Positions 54,905-58,423 of a DNA stretch of 64,000 bases are shown here, one piece after another; position 1 is the first letter of the stretch, and each line of letters starts with the position of its first letter. This stretch comes from Psychrobacter maritimus (lineage in GTDB: Bacteria > Pseudomonadota > Gammaproteobacteria > Pseudomonadales > Moraxellaceae): assembly GCF_904846345.1 (NCBI RefSeq), contig NZ_CAJHAJ010000005.1, forward strand, positions 62,001 to 126,000, given 5' to 3'. The translations under genes and the position numbers were made by a program. The notes under the pieces were generated by a model. The model ran no database searches. It was not told the DNA's origin and worked only from the letters and a program-made list of their open reading frames with translations.

Positions 54905-55384
54905 ATGATCACTCTCGGAAATACAGAAACTATTGCTTTTAAAATACACGAAATGGAAAAGCCATTCATAGTGATGGATATCATTGTGAACTCAGTAAAC
55001 ATCAGTTATCAAGATAATAATTATTATGCGTTTCCACTTGTTAACAATATTAAGAAAGAAATAGAACTTATTACTGATGGCGAATTTCACCTAAACAAAA
55101 GCTTGATCAATAAACCACTAAGCAAGCTACACCATATTTTTTATGAAACTGAAACTGGAGTGTACGATAGCAATAGTGAAAGAACTAACTTTTTGTTCTA
55201 TGACTTATCTACTAACAAATCTCTATTTTACGTTTACCAAGAAGATGAATGTCTGATATTTTTTGGGAAATTTTTTGATAGTAATAATACTATCACTTCA
55301 AGAATAAAGAAAAGTGAGTTCTTAGCTACATTGCTAAAGCTGTTGCATACAGTTGAGTCTTACGCTACTCCTCGGAACATATAA
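54905..55384 (+). CDS. AT-rich gene of unknown function between ispE and tRNA-Gln
   Basis: A 159-residue acidic protein with no signal peptide (MITLGNTETIAFKIHEM...). It is conspicuously AT-rich and uses rarer codons than ispE or prs, which points to recent acquisition at the ispE-tRNA junction. The N-terminal pattern (M-I-x-LGN-x-E-x-IAF-x-I, then a WLFG-like strand region) vaguely recalls polymorphic-toxin immunity proteins of the Imm42 sort, but this is a weak guess. No toxin gene is adjacent. Ribosome site weak (GAGCAAAAT). Confidence 0.6.
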   Translation: MITLGNTETIAFKIHEMEKPFIVMDIIVNSVNISYQDNNYYAFPLVNNIKKEIELITDGEFHLNKSLINKPLSKLHHIFYETETGVYDSNSERTNFLFYDLSTNKSLFYVYQEDECLIFFGKFFDSNNTITSRIKKSEFLATLLKLLHTVESYATPRNI

Positions 55385-56103: not shown

Positions 56104-57051
56104 ATGCCTTATTTGGCGATTTTTACGGGTAATGCTCACCCTGAATTAGCAAAAACCGTAGCCGATCATCTTCATATACCTCTTGGTAAAGCTGACATCA
56201 CGCGTTTTTCTGATGGCGAAATTGCCGTGGAAATCAAAGAACACGTACGCGGTAAAGACGTGTTTATCATGCAGCCTACTTGTGCACCGACCAACGACAA
56301 TTTGATGGAAATCATGATGATGGCCGACGCCTTGCGTCGTTCTAGTGCTGGCCGTATCACCGCTGTCATGCCTTACTTCGGTTATGCCCGTCAAGACCGT
56401 CGTCCGCGTTCAGCTCGTGTACCTATCTCTGCTAAAGTCGTCGCTGACATGCTAAACATCGTTAGCATCGATCGCGTCATGACCGTTGATTTGCACTCAG
56501 ATCAGATTCAGGGCTTCTTTGATATCCCAGTCGATAACATCTACGGTACCCCTGTATTATTGAACGATCTTAAAAAACAAGATTATGACAACATCATGGT
56601 GGTTTCACCTGACGTTGGCGGTGTGGTGCGTGCGCGTGCCATGGCTAAGCAATTGGGCGATACAGATATGGCGATTATTGATAAACGCCGTGCCCGTGCC
56701 AATGAGTCACAAGTGATGCATATCATCGGTGATGTTCGTGACCGTGATTGCGTCATCGTTGATGATATGGTCGATACCGCAGGTACGTTATGCAAAGCCG
56801 CTGAAGCACTAAAAGCAAACGGCGCGCGCCGCGTATTGGCTTATATTACTCACCCTGTCCTATCGGGTAATGCGCTGAAAAATATCAGCGAATCGGCATT
56901 GGATGAGATTGTCGTTACCGATACCATCCCATTGTCTGACGCTGCTAAAGCCTGTAGCAAAATTCGTCAAGTGAGCATCGCACCGATGCTGGCTGAAAGC
57001 TTACGCCGTATCAATAACGAAGAATCAATCAGCGCCATGTTTGATACCTAA
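56104..57051 (+). CDS. prs: Ribose-phosphate pyrophosphokinase
   Basis: Makes PRPP from ribose-5-phosphate and ATP for purine, pyrimidine, NAD, His and Trp synthesis. 315 residues. Class I PRPP synthase features: [45 protein letters not shown] (flexible ATP loop), [39 protein letters not shown] and the PRPP loop [14 protein letters not shown]. Starts at ATG 56104 after TAGGA. A good terminator follows, so it is transcribed apart from rplY. Confidence 0.98.
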
Positions 57052-57070: not shown

Positions 57071-57104
57071 AAGCGCTAAGTTTTATTACTTGGCGCTTTT
57101 TTTT
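57071..57104 (+). terminator. Intrinsic terminator after prs
   Basis: AAGCGCTAAG (57071-57080) / CTTGGCGCTT (57089-57098) with one wobble, then eight T. Loop TTTTATTA. Confidence 0.9.
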
Positions 57105-57291: not shown

Positions 57292-57297
57292 TATAAT
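57292..57297 (+). promoter_or_regulatory. -10 box of the rplY leader promoter
   Basis: Perfect TATAAT at 57292-57297. The -35 region 17 bp upstream (TTTATT) is weak. Transcription would begin about 57304, giving a ~250-nt leader before rplY. Confidence 0.5.
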
Positions 57298-57304
57298 GCG
57301 CGCC

Positions 57305-57510
57305 TGTACTGACCGTTTTTTATGATTTAAGACAGTCAGTATACTTAAAAGTGCTGATCACGCTAAAAACCCATAACTTTCCTCATTACGATGAGGCTGA
57401 AAATTGGTTATTAGCGAATGGCTTAAGAGAATAGTGGTTTATTTTTATTAACGCTTATTTCTTTTAGCTATCATCACCCATTAGTGGATTGGTCGCAAAT
57501 CCACTTTTTT
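57305..57510 (+). promoter_or_regulatory. Structured 5' leader of rplY with terminator (putative attenuator)
   Basis: Three stem-loops in order: TACTGAC (57307-57313) / GTCAGTA (57335-57341); a large stem CGCTAA-A-AACC (57361-57371) / GGTT-A-TTAGCG (57406-57416) that encloses CCTCAT (57381-57386) / ATGAGG (57391-57396); and AGTGGATT (57483-57490) / AATCCACT (57498-57505) followed by six T. The last is a perfect intrinsic terminator only 40 bp ahead of the rplY start. Some gammaproteobacterial rplY leaders are known autoregulated elements; whether this is the same structure I cannot tell. Confidence 0.6.
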
Positions 57511-57551
57511 ATGACCAGACACTTCCTCATTCTTTTTATAGGATTATATCC

Positions 57552-58226
57552 ATGAGCATTAATCATTTTGAATTAAACGCAGTTGACCGTTCTGCTGAGC
57601 TACAAGGTAAAGGTGCGAGCCGCCGCCTACGTAAGCAGAACCTAGTTCCTGCTATCATCTATGGTGGTAACGAAGAGCCAGCCGCTATCTCTATCAAAAT
57701 CAACGAGCTAGTAAAATCTCTTGAATTTGAAGCGTTCTTCTCACACATTTTGACTCTAAATGTAGATGGCGAAGCACATCAAGTGGTTATCAAAGACCTA
57801 CAACGCCATCCAGCTAAAGGCTTCCCAATGCATGCTGATTTCCAGCGCGTTGTGAAAGGTCAGAAAATCAACATGAACGTTCCATTACATTTTGCTGGTC
57901 GTGAAGAAGCACCTGGTACTAAAGCTGGCGGTGTTCTATCTACGCTAGTGACTGATATCGAAATCGTTTGCCTACCATCACAACTACCTGAATACTTAGA
58001 AGTTGACGTATCAGGCATGGAAATCGGTGATCTATTCCGTCTATCAGACATCAAACTACCTGAAGGCGTTATCATCTTTGATCTTGACATGGAAGATGCA
58101 CACGACCGTACTATCGTTAACATGCAGCCACCAACTGTTGAAGAAGTTGACGAAGACGCTGCAGAAGTTGATGCCGCTGACGTACCTGCGACTGAGCAAG
58201 CTACTGAAAACAAAGACGGCGAATAA
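57552..58226 (+). CDS. rplY: Ribosomal protein L25 / general stress protein Ctc, long form
   Basis: Binds 5S rRNA in the 50S subunit. The L25 N-domain (NAVDRSAELQGKGASRRLRKQNLVPAIIYGGNEEPAAIS) is followed by the C-terminal TL5/Ctc beta domain (PLHFAGREEAPGTKAGGVLSTLV...DIEIVCLPSQLPEYLEVDVSG) and an acidic Ala/Glu/Asp-rich tail. 224 residues from ATG 57552, preceded by AGGA with eight-base spacing. The frame is open from 57489, but that start lies inside the leader terminator and is not credible. Next gene pth. Confidence 0.97.
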   Translation: MSINHFELNAVDRSAELQGKGASRRLRKQNLVPAIIYGGNEEPAAISIKINELVKSLEFEAFFSHILTLNVDGEAHQVVIKDLQRHPAKGFPMHADFQRVVKGQKINMNVPLHFAGREEAPGTKAGGVLSTLVTDIEIVCLPSQLPEYLEVDVSGMEIGDLFRLSDIKLPEGVIIFDLDMEDAHDRTIVNMQPPTVEEVDEDAAEVDAADVPATEQATENKDGE

Positions 58227-58298: not shown

Positions 58299-58328
58299 AG
58301 CAGGTGATGAATATCTCCTGCTGTTTTT
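58299..58328 (+). terminator. Intrinsic terminator after rplY
   Basis: AGCAGG (58299-58304) / CCTGCT (58317-58322) followed by GTTTTTG, with an inner GA/TC pair possible. Likely moderate strength, so some read-through to pth. Confidence 0.6.
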
Positions 58329-58423
58329 GTAAGTAAGGTTTGAAAAATAACAGTTGTGCTATCAATAAATAGCATCATCGCAAACCTTACCACTCATTTA
58401 TTAAATTTAAGCAGGGTGTTTTT

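Follow-up and report, generated by a model that had tools for sequence, protein, structure and literature searches.

A conserved GGUCGC hairpin in the rplY leader of Psychrobacter maritimus, a probable L25 operator

In a 64,000-nucleotide stretch of the Psychrobacter maritimus genome (the whole stretch is called the window), the gene for ribosomal protein bL25 is preceded by a long leader whose last hairpin has the form of an intrinsic terminator. What does this hairpin do? A sequence-only reading of positions 57292-57551 had proposed a transcription attenuator in which one hairpin may mimic the 5S rRNA site that L25 binds. The gene neighbourhood was annotated as follows.

56104-57051: prs (Pfam)
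57071-57098, + strand: intrinsic terminator 3' of prs (11 pairs, T-tract)
57552-58226, + strand: rplY, encoding a two-domain bL25 of 224 amino acids
58424-59005: pth

The terminator at 57071-57098 sets prs apart from the rplY unit. We noted by eye AGCAGG...CCTGCT followed by GTTTTT at about 58299-58329, 3' of rplY, a likely rplY terminator; because it comes after the gene, rplY is probably its own transcription unit. The two domains of the encoded protein are L25p and the TL5 C-terminal domain (TL5_C) in Pfam. PDB 8rd8 is a solved ribosome with a bL25 very similar to that of the window (218 residues aligned), and we take it to be a Psychrobacter ribosome. Elsewhere in the window, a 159-amino-acid open frame at 54905-55384, with a GHMP-kinase gene on one side and tRNA genes on the other, gave no Pfam matches at E<=0.001.

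Promoter, fold and core hairpin of the leader

The leader comprises the following features.

57292-57304, + strand: -10 element TATAAT (57292-57297) and G+C-rich discriminator GCGCGCC, probable rplY promoter
57305-57343, + strand: leader hairpin H1 (fold; some compensatory pairs when 11 leaders are aligned)
57349-57360, + strand: 5' strand of enclosing helix P1, AAGUG-CUG-a-UCA (fold)
57361-57416, + strand: leader hairpin H2, a variable insert (fold, 11-leader alignment)
57418-57471, + strand: leader hairpin H3, AUGGCU with AGCUAU (fold, 11-leader alignment)
57483-57505, + strand: core element, a hairpin with conserved apical GGUCGC, probable L25 operator
57505-57510, + strand: T6 tract, which makes the operator hairpin terminator-like in the Psychrobacter lineage
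57512-57524, + strand: 3' strand of helix P1, UGA-c-CAG-a-CACUU (fold, 11-leader alignment)
57540-57551, + strand: ribosome-binding site AGGA (57540-57543), overlapping a small GGAU/AUCC hairpin

The TATAAT from which the sequence-only reading started is indeed present at 57292, with GCGCGCC right after it. A consensus promoter scan listed nothing at this position, and a good -35 element is absent; TATAATGCG, TATAATACG or TATAATATG was found 5' of the hairpin in 51 out of 51 Psychrobacter leaders. The discriminator suggests a growth-controlled rplY promoter; Aseev is said to have described, in 2015, ppGpp control of E. coli rplY.

From the predicted start to rplY the leader spans about 250 nt. 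The segment 57302-57553 had a folding energy of -66.6 kcal/mol; 200 shuffled sequences averaged -43.8 (sd 4.1), and none of them reached as low an energy (z -5.5). Where three hairpins had been claimed, the fold shows four (H1, H2, H3 and 57483-57505) and, in addition, the enclosing helix 57349-57360/57512-57524. The minimum-energy fold contained the operator hairpin in 49 out of 51 Psychrobacter leaders and helix P1 (AAGUG.../...CACUU) in 35 out of 51. P1 can also be read in shorter leaders, such as L006 with AAGUAU/AUACUU; the alignment of 11 long leaders neither backs nor opposes it, because most P1 pairs are invariant there. All 51 Psychrobacter leaders carry an AGGA or AAGGA ribosome site. 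A mini-hairpin over this site, GGAU-UAU-AUCC, is conserved in the consensus fold of aligned Psychrobacter leaders and might form a further layer of translational control.

The core hairpin reads AGTGGATT-GGTCGCA-AATCCACT, with eight contiguous pairs and a loop of seven, and folded alone at -9.6 kcal/mol. Its loop, GGUCGCA, occupies 57491-57497 and lies 61 nt from the rplY start. The perfect 8-bp stem and six T that had been reported at 57483-57510 are there, the T-run at 57505-57510 including the last stem base, so that the window has an intrinsic terminator-like site before rplY; between 56500 and 58800, five terminator-like sites were observed and 2.0 expected. This site had been placed just before the ribosome site, but 29 nt separate the T-run from AGGA.

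Conservation of the loop and its stem

We counted, by script, the leaders with GGTCG at most 150 nt from the rplY start, over all leaders read in each GTDB group. The motif was present in 51 out of 51 Psychrobacter leaders, 63 out of 64 from other Moraxellaceae, 22 out of 22 from the rest of the order and 88 out of 113 from the rest of the class, where 25 were without it. The one miss in the family was L075, whose start the script had misplaced and where GGTCGCAA is present; the same sequence stood upstream of rplY in all 54 Moraxellaceae loci first examined. The order set consisted of 19 of the 21 other-family genomes plus three more, and the family and order sets together cover part of the genomes in which rplY was detected. 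For the class set, 110 of the 121 genomes with PF01386 were read, nine being left out and two (G000 and G061) already belonging to the family set, and three further members brought it to 113. GGTCGC was the commonest hexamer in the class set, occurring in 88 sequences against 4.0 expected from shuffles, and the sixth loop base was C in 217 of the 224 rows found by GGTCG. In a phylum sample from outside the class, of which 17 out of 45 leaders were read, GGTCG occurred in 4 out of 17 and GGTCGC in 2 out of 17 (0.45 expected). Named loci ranked by protein similarity, partly from the same genomes, had GGTCG within 200 nt in 80 out of 80 cases and stems of at least five pairs in 51 out of 80, and they included Pseudomonas, Acinetobacter, Marinobacter and Alteromonas loci, all of this among the matches listed. 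The GGUCGC loop is thus found upstream of rplY in most gammaproteobacterial genomes sampled, far outside the E. coli-like bacteria for which control of this type has been described.

Whether the stem recurs in relatives had been left to comparison, and it does. Among rows with GGTCG, at least five contiguous pairs flanked the loop in 51 out of 51 Psychrobacter leaders, compared with 1 out of 51 when the flanks were shuffled; the corresponding counts were 58 and 4 out of 63 for other Moraxellaceae, 10 and 1 out of 22 for the rest of the order, and 63 and 7 out of 88 for the rest of the class. The hairpin comes in two forms. In form 1 the loop is GGUCGCA and the closing pair is usually U-A (almost every Moraxellaceae row, 14 out of 22 order rows and 18 out of 88 class rows); in form 2 it is GGUCGC, closed mostly by U-G (61 out of 88 class rows).

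We built two alignments, A1 (85 rows) and A2 (48 rows), from distinct rows with at least five contiguous pairs, which means that both were selected on structure. In A1 each of the eight pairs shows both-sided changes in at least some rows, and 95.4% of cells pair. Covariation scored 1.07, compared with 0.27 for shuffled rows, and both-sided changes were counted in 294 cells (79 after shuffling). The values for A2 were 91.7% of cells pairing, a score of 0.90 against 0.26, and 155 both-sided changes against 51. Among 142 distinct rows taken without selection, pairing at the five inner positions reached 91.1%; it was 42.5-54.5% when slid, and the shuffled maximum was 60.7%. The lowest figure, 78.2%, came from the rest of the order, where 7 out of 22 rows had all five inner pairs.

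A covariance model built from A1, R1, was used to search 118 Moraxellaceae genomes at E<=0.01 with stricter filters. Matches were obtained in 99 out of 118 genomes, and 96 out of the 111 genomes bearing rplY had one within 250 nt of that gene. Because many of these leaders trained R1, the matches at rplY arise partly by construction, and the informative part is the small number elsewhere: nine in 118 genomes, scoring 22.7 to 28.2 bits. In one genome, G075, the match elsewhere (28.2 bits) exceeded that at rplY (27.5 bits). Fifteen of the 111 rplY-bearing genomes had no match at rplY, nine of them from the genus g34. Second copies in the window's own genome were looked for and rejected: the pattern TTGGTCGCAAAT gave four matches, as many as the reversed control, and the next R1 match, at 24.2 bits, lies within coding sequence. 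Across these genomes, then, the element occurs almost only at rplY.

Taken together, the leader element is real, is conserved over a wide range of genomes and reaches beyond the described family. Conservation falls on the loop, GGUCGCA, rather more than on the terminator form. The idea of a structured, probably autogenous rplY leader was right in kind, and the leader is conserved; the roles assigned to individual hairpins were not supported. The last hairpin had been read only as a terminator, with the L25 site sought in another hairpin, yet it is the last hairpin that holds the conserved loop. Nor did the proposed mimicry of 5S rRNA loop E survive at the sequence level, where no loop E sequence was found in the leader. 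The genome's own 5S rRNA reads CAAUGGUAGU and GUGAGAGUAGG; it lacks GGUCGC and, compared by eye, has only UGGU in common with the loop. In H3, GAGAAUAG faintly resembles 5S but occurs in just 2 out of 51 Psychrobacter leaders.

Ligand and read-out of the hairpin

We consider it likely that the hairpin at 57483-57505 is a cis-regulatory element of the rplY leader, a variant of the E. coli type, that binds bL25 through GGUCGC and lowers rplY expression. L25 as the ligand, repression and regulated termination are what we infer from these comparisons. On this model, bL25 would bind the GGUCGC loop in the leader of its own gene, and rplY expression would fall when L25 exceeds free 5S rRNA. In this Psychrobacter lineage T6 follows the hairpin, which sits inside a larger domain enclosed by P1, so that L25 on the nascent loop could also stabilise a weak intrinsic terminator (-9.6 kcal/mol).

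The T-run bears on how binding might be read out. We counted T-runs after the stem in rows with stems of at least five pairs, with a shuffle expectation that ignores shared descent. They followed the stem in 32 out of 51 Psychrobacter rows (17.1 expected), 33 out of 58 from other Moraxellaceae (11.2 expected), 2 out of 10 from the rest of the order (1.05 expected) and 20 out of 63 from the rest of the class (8.8 expected). The T-run does not define the element, because it is absent in 19 out of 51 Psychrobacter, 8 out of 10 order and 43 out of 63 class rows. Psychrobacter leaders come in two layouts, a long one, as in the window, mostly with a T-run and a shorter one mostly without. Attenuation, as had been proposed, may operate: T-runs exceed the shuffle expectation in all four groups, and they are not universal. 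In the consensus fold of 11 leaders the hairpin persists, and no competing helix that could act as a conserved antiterminator was seen. We also considered pairing by eye, in the window, between the operator arm AAUCC and the ribosome site GGAUU; it was dropped because stems such as AGACU/AGUCU (L006, L021) mismatch while the ribosome site stays.

It is quite plausible that the element is a purely translational operator, as in E. coli, in which case the T-run would be a U-rich stretch that aids ribosome loading, with no regulated termination. That mechanism is reported for E. coli in passages of a review (PMC10931766), and the many Psychrobacter and class rows that lack a T-run fit it. The excess of T-runs over the shuffle expectation argues against it, as does the AGGA ribosome site, given that in E. 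coli a change from GAGA to GGAGG abolished control, according to the same passages (PMC10931766).

Tentatively, a single 23-nt hairpin could serve as both sensor and switch, with L25 stabilising the nascent terminator and an ancestral loop being read out by translation or by termination, depending on the lineage. The loop would then be an ancestral gammaproteobacterial L25 signal that was already in place when E. coli-like bacteria lost the C-terminal domain.

A ligand other than L25, either another protein or an antisense RNA, is unlikely. L25 binding here is deduced, and loop bases kept while stems vary are expected of any loop-recognised element; against this, the 118 genomes show the element almost nowhere but at rplY, and it stands at rplY in E. 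coli too, where the neighbouring gene differs. Very improbable is a plain intrinsic terminator, with the loop incidental, that serves to terminate the prs transcript or to release a separate small RNA from the leader. The perfect stem with T6 and the T-run excess in Moraxellaceae outside Psychrobacter (33 out of 58) suit it, but a terminator of prs is already present at 57071-57098 with a conserved -10 in between, the loop (sixth base C in nearly all rows) is conserved in more leaders than the T-run, and in E. coli the loop hairpin is present although rplY does not adjoin prs. A terminated leader RNA may yet have some function in its own right.

If L25 is indeed bound by this loop, the control that the review ties to short bL25 would also apply to the two-domain protein in much of the sampled class. 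The comparison also yields a covariance model, together with a six-base signal missed by the current Rfam model; lineages with and without the T-run make translational and transcriptional read-outs of one protein-RNA contact comparable.

Comparison with known leaders

Other rplY leaders in our samples looked different. In the class of G292 (probably Alphaproteobacteria; L251, L258, L263 and L366-L389), a different conserved hairpin precedes rplY: 56 genomes had a match, and in the 30 leaders read from among them [CT][CT]TGGAGG occurred in 22 and ACCC[CT]TGGAG in 20, the motif being looped out by stems such as GGGCGGGC/GCCCGCCC. None of L251, L258 and L263 matched a leader in Rfam 15. This hairpin appears to be a separate type of L25 leader, unrelated to the GGUCGC element. 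A third pattern upstream of rplY, seen by eye in 5 out of 17 phylum-sample leaders outside the class (L264, L266, L268, L275 and L276), has a core often like CACGGGAC(G/A)ACCCG. One record titled Streptomyces cinereus JCM 3040 (L290) carries a Moraxellaceae-like rplY (74% identity) and is probably mislabelled.

We made the comparison with the Rfam L25 leader that the sequence-only reading had suggested. RF03131 (Rfam 15, the L25-Gammaproteobacteria leader; cut-off 34.1 bits) scored 46.9 bits in E. coli, 44.7 in L277 and 35.0 in L265. It had no match to the window, either at the gathering cut-off or at E<=10, and none to 20 relatives at E<=10; Rfam leaders searched against the window region gave two unrelated matches, far below threshold. 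Passages of Eckert and Weinberg (2020, PMC7247131) name an L25 leader in Enterobacteria only, and RF03131 presumably stems from that work. Passages of PMC11109978 make no mention of rplY or L25.

In E. coli K-12, rplY comes after radD, not prs, and CCUGUUGCU-GGGUCGCC-UGUAGCAGG stands about 20 nt before its start. This hairpin folds with 8 bp, a U.U mismatch and GG[GUCG]CC; the 79-nt leader as a whole folds no better than shuffles (z -0.5). The passages of PMC10931766 describe autogenous translational repression that needs the hairpin before the ribosome site together with a weak GAGA, and state that such features are found only with short bL25. In the matter of the hairpin loop our data differ from the review, as the loop stands before a two-domain bL25: this is so in the window, and 10 out of 10 class proteins picked by strand from those whose genes follow the loop had both L25p and TL5_C, and by open-frame length 120 of the 121 bL25 genes in the class sample have at least 171 codons. 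With regard to the ribosome site, which is AGGA here, our data agree with it.

Ribosomal-protein leaders may also act by transcription attenuation, as in L4 control of the S10 operon. Like such leaders, the window has a leader hairpin and a U-tract before a ribosomal-protein gene; unlike them, its consensus fold has no competing conserved helix, and the conserved part is a terminal loop.

The closer likeness is to the E. coli operator, to which the window element is probably homologous. Because RF03131 gives no score, this homology rests on the shared hexamer, its apical loop and the shared place: in both, a hairpin with apical GGUCGC lies just upstream of the rplY ribosome site. The window differs in having the loop GGUCGCA with a U-A closing pair on an uninterrupted stem of 8 bp, a ribosome site that reads AGGA in place of the weak GAGA, 61 nt from loop to start, and a T6 tract within a larger P1-enclosed domain; its bL25 has two domains, unlike the short bL25 of the controlled species in the review. 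We therefore do not file the element as a member of RF03131, and propose that it would work like the E. coli operator.
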